Shown here: positions 45,212-53,760 of the stretch, piece after piece
How positions within the stretch are numbered: the stretch's first letter is position 1
Layout: the number at the start of each line of letters is the position of its first letter
Origin: Planctomycetaceae bacterium
GTDB lineage: Bacteria; Planctomycetota; Planctomycetia; Planctomycetales; Planctomycetaceae
DNA: 64,000 nucleotides
Assembly (NCBI GenBank): GCA_015485495.1
Contig: WFTL01000065.1
Location: 1-64,000, forward strand
Direction: 5' to 3'
The notes under the pieces: generated by a model
Told to the model about the DNA's origin: nothing
The model's input: only the letters and a program-made list of their open reading frames with translations
Database searches by the model: none
Position numbers and translations under genes: made by a program

Positions 45212-45783
45212 GCGACCTTGTCTCCTTGTGAACAGGAATCACCGAACGCCGTCAGTTCACGCGCGTGACGTGCTTCCGCAGAACCGGTCCGGTCAGCATG
45301 AGAGTGCCAACGGCTTTCTCATCTGGGCACGGACACCGTCATGAAACGGAAACGACACACATCAGGGCGAATTGTCCGGATATCCTGTTTCACGATGCGG
45401 ATGCGTGCAGCCTGTTGTCTGTCGTTCCAGGAGACAGCCATCAGCCTGCCTGGCGGGATGATATGCAGTTTTCGTCCGTGTATGTGCGCTCCGCTTCCGA
45501 ATATCGGTCTGTACGCGACCGGATCTGGAGGCCGGCGGGCCACGCGAGCTCACTTGCACATGGAACGCGTGTCCGGTGGCGTAGGTACATCGATGGTGCT
45601 GTAGAATCGGCAGACTGCATTCGGAACAGATTTTGCACCTCTGGCAGGATGAAGAAGGGCTGCCTGCCAGGCCAGGAAGTTGCTGTCTGTGGTGGGAGGC
45701 TGGTGTTGTTCCGGAATGCTGACCGGCGCGTTCGCGGAAACCGAGGGGGCCGATTGGAAATCTGAAAACGGGGAGTCGGAATC
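45212..45783. other. Divergent intergenic region (572 bp)
   Basis: It lies between the small conserved gene (minus) and the universal stress protein gene (plus). No gene is convincing. A degenerate sigma-54-like site reading right is at 45622-45637 (listed as a finding). A TGGCAC half-site on the minus strand at 45303-45308 has its GC one base too close. Confidence 0.35.
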
Positions 45784-46242
45784 ATGATCAGAATCCAGCG
45801 AATTCTGGTACCGACGGACTTCAGCGAACCAGGGCGGTCCGCTTTGAAATACGCCGTCGAATTTGCGGATCAGTTCGGTGCGGCTGTGGATCTGCTGCAT
45901 GTGGTGGAACCGATTCCACCAGGAGCACTGCTGAGTTATCAGCCGATGGAGGATCTTCGCAGCAGCCTGGTGAAACACGCGGAAGAACAGATGGAAGCCC
46001 TGCACAGTCAGTGGGAAGACTGCTGCTTTCCGGTGGAGAAAATCGTTCTCGAGGGCCATCCGTTCGTGGAAATCGTGCGGTGTGCCCGGGACCGAAAGAC
46101 GGACCTGATCATCATGGGAACTCACGGGCGCGGTCCCATCGCGCACATGATGCTGGGAAGTACGACAGAACAGGTGATCCGCAAAGCTCCCTGTCCGGTG
46201 CTTACTGTGCGCCACCCGGAACATGAATTCATCCAGCCGTGA
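45784..46242 (+). CDS. Universal stress protein (UspA family)
   Basis: The 152-residue protein starts at ATG 45784 with GGGGAG upstream. It begins IQRILVPTDFSEPGRSALKYA, the Usp start, and ends with the ATP-binding motif GTHGRGPIAHMMLGSTTEQV (Gx2Gx9G[ST]). LIIMG precedes it. Usp proteins bind ATP and support survival of stasis and low oxygen. It is one of two Usp genes in this 2.5-kb stretch, flanking glgC, next to a hydrogenase operon. Confidence 0.93.
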   Translation: MIRIQRILVPTDFSEPGRSALKYAVEFADQFGAAVDLLHVVEPIPPGALLSYQPMEDLRSSLVKHAEEQMEALHSQWEDCCFPVEKIVLEGHPFVEIVRCARDRKTDLIIMGTHGRGPIAHMMLGSTTEQVIRKAPCPVLTVRHPEHEFIQP

Positions 46243-46339
46243 TCCGGTGCCGGCGAAAATGTGAAGTGGAGGGACGATCGACAGCGCGCCGCCGGACGTG
46301 AGGTGTTCCCCGTCGGTGTGTGCGAAAAGCCGCAGTGCT

Positions 46340-47611
46340 TCACGAAACGGCGGATACCATCGGCGCCACCGTGTCGATCTGCCAGGGTTCCGGAAAGCGG
46401 CATTCCGGTGTGACGACGGTGATTCCTGTTTCAGACACCGTGCATCCAGGAGGCGGTCTGTCACCCGGTGTTCCGATGCGCATCCCGGGAGGGATGTCGA
46501 CGGCTTCTTCAACGATGCAGTTGCGGATGCAGGCACCTGCCCCGATAGTCGCTCCGTCGAACACGATGCTGTTCGTCACGGCGGCGCCTGGTTCGACCGT
46601 CACATCGGCGGACAGGATGGATCGCGTGACGGCTGCTCCGTCGGTCACCACACGGGGACAAAGCAGCGACTGCTGCACAGAACCAGCGCGTTCCGACGAA
46701 GCGTCGTCGCTTCGGTCGGGGCATCCTGTCGGGGCATATCCGCAGACAGTCCAGGCAGAACATGTCAGGTCCAGCAGTGAATCGGGTTTCAGCATGTCCA
46801 TGCTGGCGCGGTGATAGGCGTCAATGGTTCCCACATCGCGCCAGTAGAAGGGCGTCTTCTGATTCGAACCGCTGCCGGCATGCCAGGCATAAACGGGCTG
46901 TGTACGGATCAGCGAGGGGAAAATGTCCTGGCCGAAATCGTGACCGGAAAAGCTGCTGCCGTGGTCATTGTTCAGAATCCGGATGAGACCTTCGGTGGAA
47001 AAAACGTAGATGCCCATCGAAACCAGAGCCCGCCGGGGATGTCCGGAGATCGCCTGCGGCTGATTCGGTTTTTCGTGGAAATCCACCACACGACCGGCAG
47101 TATCTGCGGTGACCACACCGAATCGCCGCGCCGCAGCCAGCGGCACGTCGGTGCATGCCACGGTTGCCACGGCGTCGGACTGCTGATGGGCGCGGATCAT
47201 CCCGGAATAATCCATCCGGTAGATGTGGTCTCCCGACAGAATGAGCACCCATCGGGCGCCGCTGCGTAGGATTGCATCGAGGTTCTGGTAGACGGCGTCC
47301 GCTGTGCCGCGGTACGACGACGTTCCGGGGAGGCTGTTCGGTGACACCGGTGTGATGGTTCCGTCCGGGCGGCCTGTCCATGGCGCCCAGTTCCGGCGAA
47401 GATGTCGGTGGACGGAATCGGCCTGATACTGTGTCAGGACCAGAATGCGGCTGAGTCCGGACTGGAGACAGTTCAGCAGTGTGAAATCGACAATGCGAAA
47501 GGCGCCGGCGAAGGGGACGGCCGGCTTGGCCCGGCGTCGCGTCAGAGGCGCCAGACGGGACCCGATTCCGCCGGCCAGCACGACGGCCAGAGTTTCCGAA
47601 CACACATCCAT
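46340..47611 (-). CDS. glgC: Glucose-1-phosphate adenylyltransferase
   Basis: The 423-residue protein is full length, starting at ATG 47611. The nucleotide-binding VVLAGGIGSRLAPLTRRR and AKPAVPFAG open the protein. GTADAVYQNLDAIL, ILSGDHIYRMDYSGMI, VDFHEKPNQP and FYWRDVGTIDAYHRASMDM are typical of bacterial GlgC, and the C-terminal beta-helix (VTDGAAVTRSILSADVTVEPGA) is present. It forms ADP-glucose for glycogen. A sigma-54 type promoter lies 72 bases before the start (47694-47709), unusual for glgC. Confidence 0.95.
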   Translation of the reverse strand: MDVCSETLAVVLAGGIGSRLAPLTRRRAKPAVPFAGAFRIVDFTLLNCLQSGLSRILVLTQYQADSVHRHLRRNWAPWTGRPDGTITPVSPNSLPGTSSYRGTADAVYQNLDAILRSGARWVLILSGDHIYRMDYSGMIRAHQQSDAVATVACTDVPLAAARRFGVVTADTAGRVVDFHEKPNQPQAISGHPRRALVSMGIYVFSTEGLIRILNNDHGSSFSGHDFGQDIFPSLIRTQPVYAWHAGSGSNQKTPFYWRDVGTIDAYHRASMDMLKPDSLLDLTCSAWTVCGYAPTGCPDRSDDASSERAGSVQQSLLCPRVVTDGAAVTRSILSADVTVEPGAAVTNSIVFDGATIGAGACIRNCIVEEAVDIPPGMRIGTPGDRPPPGCTVSETGITVVTPECRFPEPWQIDTVAPMVSAVS

Positions 47612-47693
47612 CGTCTGGCTCCTGCAGCAACTGGATTCGGTTCGAGATCTGTGTGCCTGAGAGATGGCTCTGCTCTACGGCAGCAGATTTTGC

Positions 47694-47709
47694 AGCAACA
47701 GACGTGCCG
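47694..47709 (-). promoter_or_regulatory. Candidate sigma-54 promoter of glgC
   Basis: On the minus strand CGGCAC, five bases (GTCTG), then TTGCT. The GG (47708-47707) and GC (47696-47695) are separated by the required 10 bases, and the only mismatch to TGGCAC-N5-TTGCT is the first base. Transcription would start near 47683, 72 bases upstream of the glgC ATG. Confidence 0.55.
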
Positions 47710-47888
47710 TGATTCCGAATTTTCCGACTGCATGCATCGGACGGCCTGGCGAACGGCGCCGGCTGGCTGGTGCGGAGGCGGCCGGTCGGGCGGGGAACCG
47801 GCCGGACCGGCTCCGGCCGGCGATCACCCGCAGTGGAGACGAAACGGTCGGCCGCACGGTGCTGCCGCGTGAAATCTCCTTTCTTATG

Positions 47889-48326
47889 TCACTTCAGCAG
47901 CAGGATGGGGCAGTCGCACAGAAGGGAAACCTTGTAGCTCAGTGTGCCCCACGTGGCGGCCAGGCGCCGAGGATCCAGTTTTCGGGCCCGCATGATGATC
48001 AGTTCGGTGTCGTGCTCCCTGGCAAAGGAAACGATTTCCTGCAGGCGGTCTCCTGTGCGGATGGTCTGTCGCACATGAGCACCCGTGTCACACAGGGGCC
48101 GGGCCATCTTCTGCATTTCGGGTTCGATACGGCGCCGAAGCCGTTCGTAGAAGGCGATCGTTTCCTCATCCGGTCCGTCGTCTCCGGATTCGATCGTCTG
48201 AATGACGTGCAGCAGATCAATCGTGGCAGGATTGTCGGCTGCAAGCTGTCTGGCTGCTTCCAGACATCCGGCACAGTGTCCGGCAATGTCCACCGGTACC
48301 AGAATCCGCTCACAGGGCCTGATCAT
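47889..48326 (-). CDS. Universal stress protein (UspA family), second copy
   Basis: The 145-residue protein starts at ATG 48326 with a strong AGGAG 8 bases upstream. ERILVPVDIAGHCAGCLEAARQL begins the fold. TELIIMRARKLDPRRLAATWGTLSYKV occupies the place of the ATP motif but lacks the clean Gx2Gx9G spacing, so ATP binding is doubtful, while the C-terminal CDCPILLLK is typical. Three Cys near CAGC and CDCP are a local feature. It is divergent from the hydrogenase operon with a perfect sigma-54 promoter on its own side. Confidence 0.88.
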   Translation of the reverse strand: MIRPCERILVPVDIAGHCAGCLEAARQLAADNPATIDLLHVIQTIESGDDGPDEETIAFYERLRRRIEPEMQKMARPLCDTGAHVRQTIRTGDRLQEIVSFAREHDTELIIMRARKLDPRRLAATWGTLSYKVSLLCDCPILLLK

Positions 48327-48400
48327 GTTTTCGTCTCCTCTTCATCAGTCATCATCCATTCATCAGTCTGCGAAGGATGTCCCGTCGACGGGGACGCTCC

Positions 48401-48412
48401 GAATCATGATTC
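48401..48412. promoter_or_regulatory. Perfect 12-bp palindrome, possible operator
   Basis: GAATCATGATTC is a perfect inverted repeat. It is about 110 bases upstream of the plus-strand sigma-54 site, where enhancer-binding proteins usually sit, and within the leader of the divergent Usp gene. Confidence 0.3.
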
Positions 48413-48443
48413 CTCAGCGTGCAGCATGGTTTTGAGTCTGCAT

Positions 48444-48459
48444 TGCAATCTCAGTGCCA
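48444..48459 (-). promoter_or_regulatory. Sigma-54 promoter of the usp gene
   Basis: Minus strand: TGGCAC, five bases (TGAGA), then TTGCA. GG (48458-48457) and GC (48446-48445) are exactly 10 bases apart. It matches the consensus without mismatch. Transcription would start near 48433, about 107 bases before the Usp start at 48326. Confidence 0.75.
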
Positions 48460-48520
48460 GGACGTCTGTCGGTCGCATCGGTGGACGGCGGAGGGGCGTC
48501 TCTCCGGGGCTTCGTGTGTT

Positions 48521-48537
48521 TTGGCACGGCGATTGCT
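48521..48537 (+). promoter_or_regulatory. Sigma-54 promoter of the hydrogenase operon
   Basis: TTGGCACG, GCGA, TTGCT matches TGGCACG-N4-TTGCW exactly. GG (48523-48524) and GC (48535-48536) are 10 bases apart. The start of transcription should be near 48548, 43 bases before ATG 48591. Confidence 0.8.
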
Positions 48538-48590
48538 TTTCCTGTGCACGATGATGTGGTGCCGTGCCGGCTGCTGCGGAGGCGAAACGG

Positions 48591-49079
48591 ATGACGATGG
48601 ACAGATCGCTGGCAGCCTGTCTGCGGGCCTCGCCATTCGGCCCTCTGCTGGATGGTCACCAGGCCGTTTCTGTTCTGGCCATCGGTCAGTGCGAAGAAGC
48701 GGCCGCCGGGCAGGTTGTGTTCAGCGAAGGAGCTCCGGCGGAACATCTGCGCATCATCTGTCAGGGGCAGGTGTCTCTGGAGATGTTGCTTCCGGGACGG
48801 GGACGTCGGCGGATTCTCACGCTGGGGCCCAGCGATCTTCTGGGCTGGTCGGCTGTGGCGGGTGACGGAACGATGTCGGCCACTGCGACCGCGATGGAAG
48901 ACACCTGGATGCTGAAGCTGCCGGCCTGCGAGCTTCGGTCGCTGTTCGACCGCGATCCGGTGACAGGGCGGATCATCATGGAACAGACGGCCCGGGCTCT
49001 GGCACGGAGGCTGCAGGCAGCACGGCTCCAGCTTCTGGATCTTTTCTCGCACGACGAATCTGTCGGAGGCGTGTCGTGA
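48591..49079 (+). CDS. Cyclic-nucleotide-binding-domain protein (Crp-like, no HTH)
   Basis: The 162-residue protein starts at ATG 48591, with GGAGG 8 bases upstream; GTG 48564 is in frame. It has a cNMP-binding fold (AAGQVVFSEGAPAEHLRIICQGQVSLEM; LTLGPSDLLGWSAV), with the sensor helix ALARRLQAARLQLLD at the end. The usual Crp/Fnr helix-turn-helix after residue ~140 is absent, so it does not look like a DNA-binding regulator by itself. Its stop overlaps the HydB start (TGATG at 49077-49081). I know such genes beside group 3b hydrogenases and think it senses redox or a nucleotide, though this is an inference. Confidence 0.82.
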   Translation: MTMDRSLAACLRASPFGPLLDGHQAVSVLAIGQCEEAAAGQVVFSEGAPAEHLRIICQGQVSLEMLLPGRGRRRILTLGPSDLLGWSAVAGDGTMSATATAMEDTWMLKLPACELRSLFDRDPVTGRIIMEQTARALARRLQAARLQLLDLFSHDESVGGVS

Positions 49080-50236
49080 TGCCGAACCAGGTGCCTGAGT
49101 GTACTGATGCGCCGGCTGTGCCGCCTGCCGCAGAATGGTTTCTGCCCAGGGACAGTCTGCAGGCGCTCATCGAGTGTCTGCAGGAAGACGGTTACACGGT
49201 GATCGGTCCGGTGGTGGATCAGGAAGCGATCACGTATCAGGTCATTTCGTCGGTGGATGATCTTCCCCGGGGCTGGACGGAGGAACAGTCGGCCGGCCGG
49301 TATCGGCTGGTGCGCCGCGACGATGAAGCACTGTTCGGTTACACCGTGGGTCCGCATTCCTGGAAGGCATTTCTGTTTCCGCCTCAGGTCACAGTGGCCC
49401 GGGCGGATCGTTCTTCCGACGGCCGCTGGGAGATGACCACGCCGGAAGAAACGGTTCCTCGCCATGCTTTTCTGGGAGTCCGCGCCTGCGAACTGGCGGC
49501 GATCGCCGTTCAGGACCGCGTGTTTCTGGAGGGTCCCTGGGTGGATCCCGTGTACCAGGCGCGTCGCCGCGAAGTGTTCATCGTGGCCGTGCACTGCACG
49601 CAGGCTGCCTCCACCTGCTTCTGCACATCGATGGGAACCGGGCCGGAGTGTCGAACGGGATTCGATCTGGCTCTGACAGAACTGGAAGACGGCTTTGTCA
49701 TCCAGGGCGGGTCGGACGCCGGCCATGAGATCCTTGAGCGTCTGGATGTCGCTGTTGCAGCACCGTCGCAGAGTGCCGCGGCCGGATCCGCTCGCAGACA
49801 GGCGGAACGTCAGATCCGCAGACACCTGGACACGAACGGTCTGAGAGACCTGCTTCTGAACAGTCTGGATGATTCGCAGTGGGACGCCGTGGCCGGCCGC
49901 TGTCTGTCCTGTACGAACTGCACCATGGTCTGTCCGACCTGCTTCTGCAGCACGGTGACGGACGTCCCGGATCTGTCCGGTGACCATGTGAAGCGGGAGC
50001 GGTCCTGGGATTCCTGTTTCAACGTGGATTTCAGCCGGATGAGTGGCGGTGTGATTCGCAATGACGTGCGCAGCCGCTACCGTCAGTGGCTGACCCACAA
50101 GCTGGCATCGTGGCACGATCAGTTCGGACAGTCCGGGTGCGTCGGCTGCGGCCGCTGCATTACCTGGTGTCCGCCGGGAATCGACCTGACGGAAGAAGTT
50201 GCCGCCATCCGGTCTCATCAGGAGCCGATTCCGTGA
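49079..50236 (+). CDS. hydB: Group 3b [NiFe] hydrogenase beta subunit (Fe-S, HydB-like)
   Basis: The 385-residue cytoplasmic protein starts at ATG 49079, one base overlapping the previous stop. Two [4Fe-4S] sites lie at the C-terminus: [15 protein letters not shown] and [17 protein letters not shown]. The N-terminal domain matches the sulfhydrogenase beta/anaerobic sulfite-reductase subunit A family ([26 protein letters not shown]). It passes electrons between the FAD-bearing gamma subunit and the NiFe heterodimer. The next gene begins inside its last codons, so the complex is made in fixed order. Confidence 0.93.
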
Positions 50237-51078
50237 CTGCCACCGGAATGGTCCACCCCTGGCAGTGTCGGAATGCCCGCGTTCGTTCCGTTCATTGTGA
50301 AGCTCCGGACGTGATGACTCTGGAACTTGTGATGGACGATCCGGCAGCGGCGCCTCCGTACCGATTCGAACCGGGGCAGTTCAACATGTTGTATGTTCCC
50401 GGAGTCGGAGAGGCGGCGATTTCCATCAGCGGTGATCCGTCCGACACATCGAGTCTGCTGCATACCGTTCGGGCTGTGGGAAACGTGACGCGGTTCCTCA
50501 CGAACATGACGGCCGGATCCTGTCTGGGAATCCGTGGCCCCCTGGGAGTCGGCTGGCCGCTGTCGCAGTGTGATGGAAAGGACATTCTTCTGGTGGCCGG
50601 CGGCATCGGCCTGGCCCCTTTGCGCCCGGTTGTGTCCGCTCTGCTGGCAGATCGGCATCGCTACGGACACATCAGTCTGCTCGTCGGTGCCCGCACACCG
50701 AAGGATCTTCTGTACAGGCGGGAATGGTCGGCCTGGCAGAAGGACATCGACGTTCAGGTGACTGTGGATCGGGCAGACGACGGCTGGAACGGTCATGTGG
50801 GAGTCGTGACGACGCTGCTGGACCGGCTTCCCGTCAGCCGGCCCGAACAGACGGTGCTGATGACCTGCGGTCCGGAAGTCATGATGTGGTACAGCATTCG
50901 GGCTGCTCTGGATCGCGGGGTGCGGTCGTCAGCGGTCTGGCTGTCTCTGGAACGTCATATGAACTGCGGGGTGGGTCTGTGCGGTCACTGCCAGCTTGGA
51001 CCGGAACTGCTCTGCCGCGATGGCCCGGTTGTCCCGTTCGATCGGGTGGCGCCCTTTCTGAAGGTCGACAGCTTATGA
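50233..51078 (+). CDS. hydG: Group 3b [NiFe] hydrogenase gamma subunit (FAD/NAD(P), HydG-like)
   Basis: The 281-residue protein starts at GTG 50233, four bases overlapping the beta stop, with AGGAG upstream. A ferredoxin-reductase-like fold is seen: FEPGQFNMLYVPG (FAD), LVAGGIGLAPLRPVV and VLMTCGPEVMMWYSI (NAD(P)). A [2Fe-2S] ligand set lies at CGVGLCGHCQLG and LLCRDG. It receives electrons from NAD(P)H, or delivers them. It is co-transcribed with beta and delta. The coenzyme preference (NADPH in the characterised group 3b members) is not proven here. Confidence 0.93.
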   Translation: MTATGMVHPWQCRNARVRSVHCEAPDVMTLELVMDDPAAAPPYRFEPGQFNMLYVPGVGEAAISISGDPSDTSSLLHTVRAVGNVTRFLTNMTAGSCLGIRGPLGVGWPLSQCDGKDILLVAGGIGLAPLRPVVSALLADRHRYGHISLLVGARTPKDLLYRREWSAWQKDIDVQVTVDRADDGWNGHVGVVTTLLDRLPVSRPEQTVLMTCGPEVMMWYSIRAALDRGVRSSAVWLSLERHMNCGVGLCGHCQLGPELLCRDGPVVPFDRVAPFLKVDSL

Positions 51079-51917
51079 CATCTTCTGTGTCGGACGATCC
51101 GGTGGCGGTCGGCCGAAAAAAACTGGCCGTGTTCAAGTTTGCTTCCTGCGACGGCTGTCAGCTTTCGCTGCTGTCCTGCGAAGACGAACTGCCTGCGCTG
51201 GCCGAACAGATCGACATTTCGTTCTTTCTCGAAGCGTCCAGCCGCATCGGCACGGGGCCGTGGGACATCGCTCTGGTAGAGGGCTCCATCACGACACCGG
51301 AAGACGAACAGCGGATTCGTTCGGTGCGCCGCCAGGCGGCCACGGTGGTGACGATCGGAGCCTGTGCGACGGCAGGCGGCATTCAGTCTCTGCGGAACTG
51401 GGCAGACCATGACGAGTTTCTCCGGTGTGTGTATGCCCGGCCCGAATTCATTTCGACTCTGGCTTCGTCGACTGCCGTCGCCGATCACATTCCGGTTGAT
51501 TATGAGCTGCGGGGATGTCCGGTGGACCGGTATCAGCTTCTGAGCGTCCTGCGGGATCTGATTCGCGGCCGCACCGTGCGGCTGCCGCGGCACAGCGTGT
51601 GTCTCGACTGCAAGCGCCGCGGAACCGTGTGCGTGGAGGTTGCTCAGGGAATTCCGTGTCTGGGGCCGGTGACGCACACCGGCTGCGGGGCCTTGTGTCC
51701 GGCATTCAACCGAGGATGCTATGGCTGTTTCGGGCCGTCCGCCCAGGCGAACACCGGGTCTCTGATCCGGACGCTGGCGGAGGGCGGTCTGCCGGAAGCC
51801 CGTCGGGTGGCTCTGTTTCGCAGTTTCAATGCGGCGGCTCCCGAATTCCGGATCGATGAACGGGCGGCGCGTTCCGACATTGGGTCTTCCGGTACCGGCA
51901 GAGGAGAACTGTCATGA
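51075..51917 (+). CDS. hydD: Group 3b [NiFe] hydrogenase small (delta) subunit
   Basis: The 280-residue protein starts at ATG 51075 and overlaps the gamma stop by 4 bases. The NiFe small-subunit cysteines are present: FASCDGCQLSLLSCE, GACATAGGIQ, ELRGCPVDRYQLL and VTHTGCGALCPAFNRGCYGCFGP. They hold three Fe-S clusters leading electrons from the NiFe site to the beta/gamma module. It lacks a Tat signal, as group 3 enzymes do, so the complex is cytoplasmic. The ATGA overlap with the next gene continues the coupling. Confidence 0.95.
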   Translation: MTSSVSDDPVAVGRKKLAVFKFASCDGCQLSLLSCEDELPALAEQIDISFFLEASSRIGTGPWDIALVEGSITTPEDEQRIRSVRRQAATVVTIGACATAGGIQSLRNWADHDEFLRCVYARPEFISTLASSTAVADHIPVDYELRGCPVDRYQLLSVLRDLIRGRTVRLPRHSVCLDCKRRGTVCVEVAQGIPCLGPVTHTGCGALCPAFNRGCYGCFGPSAQANTGSLIRTLAEGGLPEARRVALFRSFNAAAPEFRIDERAARSDIGSSGTGRGELS

Positions 51918-53227
51918 CGGAAACACGGCAGATTCGGGTACGGGCGCTGACTCGTGTGGAAGGGGAGGGCGGCCTGACCGTTCGCCTGCGGGGCGATGCT
52001 GTCGAGGATGTGCAGCTTCAGATCTACGAACCACCGCGTTTTTTCGAAGCACTGCTTCGTGGTCGGCCGCTGGAAGATGCCATCGACATCACTGCACGCA
52101 TCTGCGGTATCTGCCCGGTGGCCTATCAGATGAGTTCTGTGCACGCCCTGGAGGCCGCGCTGGGCATTTCCGTGGCGCCGGAGATTCGCCGGCTGCGCCG
52201 TCTGATGTACTGCGGGGAATGGATAGAAAGCCATGCGCTGCATATTCATCTGCTGCATGCTCCCGATTTTTTTCGTATGGACAGCGGCCTGGATCTGGCC
52301 CGACGTTTTCCCGACGAAATCCGCCGTGGTCTGGAACTGAAAAAACGCGGCAATGCTTTGCTGGAGGTGCTGGGGGGGCGGGCCATTCACCCGGTGAACG
52401 TGGCCGTGGGCGGGTTCCATCGGATTCCTCCCCGGGAACAGCTTGAAAGGCTGATTCCGCAGTTCGAACAGGGCCTGGAGGATGCGGTTGCCGCAGCGCG
52501 ATGGGTGGCCGGGTTTTCGTTTCCGGACGGCAGCCGCAGCTATGACCTGGTCGCTCTGAACCATCCGGATGAATATCCGATGAACGAAGGAACGGTTGTC
52601 TCACTGTCCGGAGTTCGCGTACAGCCGGACGCATTCGAACGGACGTTTCGGGAACATCAGGTTTCCTGGAGCACAGCTCTCCATTCCGGGATGGTCTCGT
52701 CGCCGCAGTCCCCGCCGACGGTCTATCATGTGGGACCGCTGGCGCGTGTGAGTCTGAATCGCGATCGCCTGTCTCCGACGGCTCAGCGTCTGGCCGACGA
52801 AACAGGCTTCGAAACTCCGTGTCACAGTCCCTGGCGGAGCATCATTGCCCGAAGTCTGGAACTGATTCATGCGTATGAGGAGGCTCTTGACATTCTTCGC
52901 ACGCTTCCGAAGACGTATCCGTCACGGCCGGTCTTCACACCGTGTCAGGCCACAGGCTGTGCGGTGACAGAAGCGCCGCGCGGACTGCTGTACCATCGAT
53001 ACGAGACGGACGATCACGGTCAGATCGCAGCGGCCAACATCATTCCGCCGACATCTCAGAACCAGAGGCAGATTGAAGAAGACCTGATCGCCTGTCTGCC
53101 TGGTATCCTTGAGGAAAGTTCGGATGACGCTGACGCAGGCCGTGCCTGCGAACGCCTCATCCGCTGCTACGATCCGTGCATCAGTTGTTCCACGCATTTT
53201 CTCACCGTAAGTTTCCAGCGAACATGA
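51914..53227 (+). CDS. hydA: Group 3b [NiFe] hydrogenase large (alpha) subunit
   Basis: The 437-residue protein starts at ATG 51914. The catalytic L1 motif is ARICGICPVAYQMS (about residue 62) and the L2 motif is YDPCISCSTHF (about residue 420-430), giving the four Cys that hold Ni and Fe. RVEGEGGL at the start and the extra C-terminal residues after the His of L2, which are removed by the protease encoded next, are typical. It makes or consumes H2 in the cytoplasm. Hyp maturation genes are not in the window, so they must lie elsewhere. Confidence 0.96.
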   Translation: MTETRQIRVRALTRVEGEGGLTVRLRGDAVEDVQLQIYEPPRFFEALLRGRPLEDAIDITARICGICPVAYQMSSVHALEAALGISVAPEIRRLRRLMYCGEWIESHALHIHLLHAPDFFRMDSGLDLARRFPDEIRRGLELKKRGNALLEVLGGRAIHPVNVAVGGFHRIPPREQLERLIPQFEQGLEDAVAAARWVAGFSFPDGSRSYDLVALNHPDEYPMNEGTVVSLSGVRVQPDAFERTFREHQVSWSTALHSGMVSSPQSPPTVYHVGPLARVSLNRDRLSPTAQRLADETGFETPCHSPWRSIIARSLELIHAYEEALDILRTLPKTYPSRPVFTPCQATGCAVTEAPRGLLYHRYETDDHGQIAAANIIPPTSQNQRQIEEDLIACLPGILEESSDDADAGRACERLIRCYDPCISCSTHFLTVSFQRT

Positions 53228-53760
53228 CCACCGGCAGAGGACAGGACGTGGCAGGCGGAACCTGCGCCCAGATGGTTGCGGGGCTGGGCAGTTCCCATGG
53301 GGACGATCGGGCCGGCTGGGTGCTGGCGGAAATGCTTGCCGAATGCTGTCCGCCGGGTGTGTCGGTCTTTGCGGTGCGAACGCCGCTGGATGTGCTTAGT
53401 CGGATCCGCCAGGACGTCTGGTTCCACCTGATCGATGCGTGCGATGCGGGACGGAAACCCGGGACGCTGCTTCGCTGGAGTTCGACAGCTTCGGACTGGT
53501 CGGCAGAACCGAACACCGTCCCGCAGATCGTGGCGGCATGCCGTGCTGCCACCACACATGACATGGATTGCTTATCGGTTCTGGAACTGGCACGCCGGCT
53601 GCAGCAGTTTCCCAGGGGGCTGACTGTCTGGATGATTCAGGGACGCTGTTTCGAACCAATGAGTGCGATGTCCGCTGAAGTGACCGGAGCGCTTCCCCAG
53701 GCGGCCGAAGCGGTTCTGCAGGAGCTGAACGGCCGGTCGGCACGGGCGGCGGAAGGCTGA
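53224..53760 (+). CDS. Hydrogenase maturation protease (HycI/HybD-like)
   Basis: The 178-residue protein starts at ATG 53224, four bases overlapping the large-subunit stop. AGLGSSHGDDRAGWVLAEML has the first Asp ligand, HLIDACDAG the second, and THDMDCLSVLELARRL the His; together they match the nickel-binding site of hydrogenase endopeptidases. It trims the large subunit C-terminus after nickel insertion. It ends the operon, with a convergent gene 20 bases on. Confidence 0.9.
   Translation: MTTGRGQDVAGGTCAQMVAGLGSSHGDDRAGWVLAEMLAECCPPGVSVFAVRTPLDVLSRIRQDVWFHLIDACDAGRKPGTLLRWSSTASDWSAEPNTVPQIVAACRAATTHDMDCLSVLELARRLQQFPRGLTVWMIQGRCFEPMSAMSAEVTGALPQAAEAVLQELNGRSARAAEG

Follow-up and report, generated by a model that had tools for sequence, protein, structure and literature searches.

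In Chlamydia trachomatis, glgC is a direct target of sigma-54 (4.79-fold; promoter 136 nt upstream; PMC7482065) and its expression falls on knockdown of sigma factors (PMC10597470); the same sigma-54 regulon (RpoN with CtcC) also holds the hrcA-grpE heat-shock genes (PMC7482065, PMC10597470). In Planctomycetia, universal stress proteins (USPs; COG0589), GroEL, IbpA/Hsp20 and other chaperones have already been predicted as sigma-54 targets (PMC12316311). The main text of that study reports sigma-54-controlled hydrogenases for Proteobacteria only ([NiFe] enzymes COG1740/COG0374, together with formate hydrogenlyase), and leaves glgC, glycogen and bicarbonate uptake unmentioned (PMC12316311). A search of the open-access literature returned no report linking sigma-54 to a planctomycete group 3b hydrogenase, in itself weak evidence of absence.

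Here we describe a 64-kb stretch of DNA from an uncultured Planctomycetaceae bacterium (contig WFTL01000065.1, positions 1 to 64,000; hereafter the ‘window’), in which three predicted -24/-12 elements fit inside 844 bp. We hold it highly likely that these are sigma-54 (RpoN) promoters—a divergent pair for a [NiFe] hydrogenase operon (hyh) and a universal stress protein gene (usp), with a third for glgC2, a paralog of the ADP-glucose pyrophosphorylase gene—and that they form part of a wider sigma-54 set; judged from sequence, the promoters are very probably functional. The USP/chaperone (PMC12316311) and chlamydial glgC (PMC7482065) precedents reduce the novelty of this; what is new is the site at a planctomycete group 3b hydrogenase and at the GlgC2 paralog.

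Read directly and scored against the consensus, all three sites proposed in an initial annotation of this DNA are present where it had placed them, each with GG-N10-GC spacing, each noncoding and each aimed at a gene start. The hydrogenase site (48521–48537, plus strand) carries TGGCACG and TTGCT on either side of GCGA; its core, TGGCACGGCGATTGCT, occupies 48522–48537, is preceded by an extra T at 48521, and agrees at 12/12 positions with TGGCACG-N4-TTGCW. The usp site (TGGCACTGAGATTGCA; 48444–48459, minus strand) is an exact TGGCAC-N5-TTGCA, but scores 11/12 when a G is demanded after TGGCAC; the description of both as free of mismatches thus stands for the hydrogenase site against the 7+5 consensus and not for that of usp. 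At the glgC2 site (CGGCACGTCTGTTGCT; 47694–47709, minus strand; 11/12) a C replaces the first T of the consensus. The GG pairs of the divergent sites do lie 64 bases apart, as claimed, whilst the quoted gene-start distances of 43–110 bases hold when measured from the presumed start of transcription; the bases between site and start codon number 53 for the hydrogenase operon (ATG at 48591), 117 for usp (ATG at 48326) and about 82 for glgC2 (ATG at 47611). Sigma-70 promoters were considered as an alternative and rejected, no sigma-70-like site having been found in 46200–48700.

Moving rightwards from the divergent pair, the operon opens with a gene for a cyclic-nucleotide-binding-domain (cNMP-domain) protein (48591–49079, plus strand; PF00027, 2.6e-15), in which Pfam detects no HTH or DNA-binding domain. 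It is followed on the same strand by a hyhB-like gene for a 4Fe-4S subunit (49076–50236; PF17179), a hyhG-like gene for an FAD/NAD(P)-binding subunit (50233–51078, start approximate; PF00175, PF10418), hyhS, for the small subunit (51060–51917, start approximate; PF01058), hyhL, for the [NiFe] large subunit (51914–53227; PF00374, with RICGIC and DPCISC motifs identified by eye), and a maturation protease gene of the HycI family (53176–53760; PF01750) that the gene caller had missed. This gives the B-G-S-L subunit set, the order of which is conserved in relatives. The best PDB match of HyhL is sulfhydrogenase 1 subunit alpha (1.2e-61), from entries that we take to be Pyrococcus furiosus SHI, a group 3b enzyme. 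From the subunit set, the CxxC motifs and this structure-database match, the hydrogenase is classed as group 3b-type, predicted to be NADP-type and cytoplasmic. It shares the B-G-S-L set with P. furiosus sulfhydrogenase I, but the bacterial operon starts with the cNMP-domain protein and ends with the HycI protease; the sigma-54-controlled hydrogenases of Proteobacteria likewise have a promoter ahead of the hydrogenase genes, but belong to other hydrogenase groups. Most planctomycete relatives, and members of some other phyla, likewise have the cNMP-domain gene ahead of hyhB; in actinobacterial hydrogenase loci none was found. HypD is encoded elsewhere in the genome (contig C180) beside a HypE-like neighbour; there being no good site aimed at these genes, sigma-54 control of hyp was rejected.

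To the left of the pair lies usp itself (47889–48326, minus strand; 145 aa; PF00582, 5.8e-14). A second Usp is encoded in the window (45784–46242, plus strand), convergent with glgC2 and 72% identical to a Usp of locus L362; an exact sigma-54 site lies some 48 bp ahead of the L362 gene, a weak one only (CGGAACAGATTTTGCA, at 45622) ahead of the window copy.

A first-order Markov version of the 64-kb window yields an expectation of 0.5 sites at 11/12 and 0 at 12/12. There are three further 11/12 sites in the window, two within called genes (25448, minus strand; 49000, plus strand) and one within the hycI reading frame (53588, plus strand); these are less convincing. The source genome (4.67 Mb in 180 contigs, 98% complete) was ranked, a genome-wide ranking having been proposed in the annotation, by pattern searches for TGGCAC-N5-TTGCW and its one-mismatch variants, and this places the hydrogenase and usp sites amongst just eight exact matches, against three for the reversed pattern; the expectation that any two of eight would fall within 100 bp of each other is about 0.001. 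Of the 84 sites with at most one mismatch, 83 could be classified by a gene caller based on codon usage (the exception, C60:48593, lies too near a contig end). Equal-scoring sites are not scattered through coding sequence: all eight exact matches are noncoding, six have a start within 300 bp downstream, and by eye the other two are also aimed at genes (dabA, and a small protein ahead of clpX). With one mismatch outside the core, 21/51 are noncoding and 15/51 near a start; with the mismatch in GG or GC, 9/24 and 1/24, respectively. The class of the glgC2 site, CGGCAC-N5-TTGCW, has seven members in the genome, six noncoding and one coding (on C40); it must therefore contain some false positives. 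RpoN is encoded once, and the genome also has about 15 sigma-54 activators, which carry AAA+ and Fis-type domains.

Elsewhere in the genome, the exact site TGGCACGGTTGTTGCA (C97; L081:8492–8507, minus strand) stands ahead of a cytochrome c gene and nitrate reductase operon, the order after the cytochrome c gene being molybdopterin subunit, nitrate reductase beta and gamma subunits, and a fourth, NarJ-like frame. On C138 an exact site precedes an MFS transporter and nitrite reductase, and on C169 another precedes the small protein and clpX. C89 has exact sites ahead of dabA with its partner and ahead of a SulP transporter, a cluster pointing to inorganic carbon uptake as a sigma-54-controlled process; it also encodes a response-regulator activator and a PTS EIIA with a near-exact, one-mismatch site (L079, L080). 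Two Hsp20 genes lie behind an exact site (C134; L082:8530–8545, plus strand) and groEL behind a one-mismatch site (C159; L087:8076–8091, minus strand), so that with usp the genome resembles the regulon predicted for Planctomycetia (PMC12316311). A one-mismatch site is also found upstream of the gene for glutamine synthetase. Glutamine synthetase is a classical sigma-54 target.

Orthologous intergenic regions, which the annotation had suggested as a check, were taken from a family of 170 genomes, with a match to hyhS in 80, glgC homologs in 169 and relatives of the window usp in 106. We scanned 350 bp upstream of each gene, with redundant regions removed and the window left out; the scoring matrix was hand-built by us from the published consensus, so that only comparisons of its scores with those of 300 column-permuted control matrices are reliable. 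Strong sites (score of at least 13) on the same strand are enriched at all three genes: 8/24 for glgC2 (none reverse; 0.23 expected), 5/28 for usp (one reverse; 0.18 expected) and 7/52 for hyh (three reverse; 0.49 expected), with one reverse match at each of usp and hyh being the partner promoter of a divergent pair (L199/L306). None of the 300 permuted matrices reached the observed counts. At three usp orthologs (L299, L302, L303) the exact site TGGCACCGGGATTGCT occurs at -134 to -138. In these relatives sites are commoner at glgC2 and usp than at hyh, and many orthologs have none; amongst the first 20 or so relatives there was no strong site upstream of hyh, the enrichment appearing only with more than 50 loci. 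Most hyh orthologs lacking a strong site, sigma-54 control would not be generally required for the operon, and appears patchy across the family. Same-genus genomes have neither a hydrogenase nor a match to the window usp, and hence offer no close footprint. In one relative (L199; a single-contig genome of 8.92 Mb) usp and the hydrogenase operon are again divergent and both have sites, CGGCACAATCATTGCA ahead of the cNMP-domain gene and CGGCACACGGCTTGCT ahead of usp, with glgC not adjacent to the pair. The usp-glgC2-hyh cluster was seen in the window genome only, the three genes being mostly unlinked in relatives.

The glgC gene of the window (46340–47611, minus strand; 423 aa; PF00483, PF24894) is a second, divergent copy on a long branch that retains, by eye, its main catalytic motifs (AGGIGSRL, GDHIYRMDY and FHEKP). 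In a maximum-likelihood tree the GlgC sequences fall into a canonical clade (23 rows) and a GlgC2 clade (27 rows), with support of 100/100, the window copy falling in the latter and the genome's other copy, on C115, in the former. No sigma-54 site was found at this canonical glgC, nor any strong site upstream of canonical orthologs (0/18), from which we conclude that the site belongs with GlgC2. At a looser threshold of 9, sites are found in 18/27 GlgC2 rows (a count that includes L283, a contig-edge row with an invalid upstream region) versus 2/23 canonical rows, both weak. Outside the family, the best 30 phylum-wide matches are all canonical, with weak same-strand sites at most (2/30). A usp beside glgC in genome G021 was considered as a window-like arrangement and rejected, its glgC being canonical and without a site. 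The annotation's remark that no glgC was known under sigma-54 in planctomycetes needs amending to the extent that a precedent exists in the sister phylum Chlamydiota (PMC7482065, PMC10597470); the window gene, moreover, is the second paralog. A glgC target is common to C. trachomatis and, by prediction, the window, with the differences that the window gene is this second paralog and that in C. trachomatis sigma-54 serves late developmental genes, its targets here including hydrogenase and usp. In the genome that contains L199, the genes downstream of glgC2 encode a HAD hydrolase, a 403-aa protein with no match in Pfam, and an enzyme of the alpha-amylase family (L352:6354–11629), a neighbourhood that might represent a compatible-solute pathway instead of glycogen.

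Could the sites be chance matches to a short consensus? One-mismatch sites are indeed common, with 76 in the genome beyond the eight exact ones, and many lie inside coding sequence; exact sites, however, are few and all noncoding, and the same-strand enrichment is found at orthologs on which the choice of sites did not depend. We consider chance a very improbable explanation. Convincing sites, together with ortholog sites above chance, make this look like a real part of a sigma-54 regulon, for the most part not previously recorded.

How many activators serve genuine promoters is a separate matter. The annotation had one activator switching on all three units, of which the sigma-54 promoters ahead of usp, glgC and the hydrogenase operon stand, on genome ranking, noncoding position and ortholog enrichment, whilst the single activator is no more than plausible: about 15 are encoded, no shared element exceeded shuffles, and strong sites occur at only 7/52 hyh orthologs. 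The sites may instead be genuine yet depend on different activators and respond to different signals (say, redox for hyh and usp, carbon or nitrogen for glgC2), their proximity reflecting gene clustering, a reading that we judge about evenly balanced; the number of activators, the lack of a common element, the mostly unlinked genes of relatives and the uneven frequency of sites at glgC2, usp and hyh all speak for it. Against full separation, the hyh and usp promoters have 62 bp of upstream DNA in common (48460–48521), a candidate activator-binding region, and the divergent pair is kept in L199; by this geometry a common activator for those two is likely. For a single enhancer-binding protein acting on all three, this common DNA and the confinement of the sites to 844 bp can be cited, but no shared dyad or element was found and no relative was seen to have the three genes clustered, such that we think it rather unlikely. 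When the 220 bp ahead of promoters in this genome were searched for dyads and for words held in common, no candidate for an enhancer common to the three beat the shuffles. The search did show that the 62-bp region contains a 12-mer, GCTTCGTGTGTT, and a 10-mer, CTGTCGGTCG, also found in the upstream DNA of the C97 nar promoter; saying this, shuffled sets give a shared 12-mer for hyh/usp in 11% of cases and for any pair in 38%, making these words only a lead and leaving one activator for all three unproven.

Returning to the preferred reading of three sigma-54 promoters, RNA polymerase with sigma-54 would bind the -24/-12 elements as a closed complex that fires only once remodelled by a signal-activated AAA+ enhancer-binding protein. 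The divergent pair would then turn on the group 3b-type hydrogenase operon rightward and usp leftward, the third site would switch on GlgC2, and the same sigma-54 set would extend to respiratory nitrate reductase, nitrate/nitrite transport, nitrite reductase, DabA inorganic carbon uptake, Hsp20, GroEL and glutamine synthetase. Most likely, with promoter activity, signal and physiological role all inferred, a disturbance of respiration or of nitrogen/carbon balance would lead to a shift of reductant (hydrogenase), protection (Usp and chaperones) and carbon storage (GlgC2). One sigma factor would so tie together a cytoplasmic hydrogenase, nitrate respiration, inorganic carbon uptake, chaperones and a second glycogen enzyme, a concrete and testable regulon for a phylum whose sigma-54 function rests on predictions, with a regulatory change linked to one paralog of the glgC pair. 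More tentatively, and with somewhat less than even confidence, we propose that glgC was duplicated in this planctomycete family and that GlgC2 came under sigma-54 to form a stress-inducible carbon-storage branch, in a regulon shared with the group 3b hydrogenase, nitrate respiration and chaperones; in light of the chlamydial case, regulation of glgC by sigma-54 may be ancient in the PVC superphylum or may have arisen there more than once. The chlamydial precedent makes sigma-54 and glycogen a testable question across the PVC group.

Further sites were seen beyond these genes. On C172, TGGCACGCAAGTTGCC (L091:2484–2499, plus strand) lies directly ahead of a gene for a 1152-aa type I restriction R-like helicase, which immediately follows the gene for a sigma-54 activator whose N-terminal part is unusual, and the one-mismatch site TGGCGCTGCAGTTGCA (L401:14251–14266, minus strand) is found 155 nt ahead of secA. 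In MAGs of Bacteroidetes, Chlorobi and Myxococcales (L180, L176, L166), operons of the group 3b type also have sigma-54-like sites just ahead of hyhB, with scores of 14.7–17.2.
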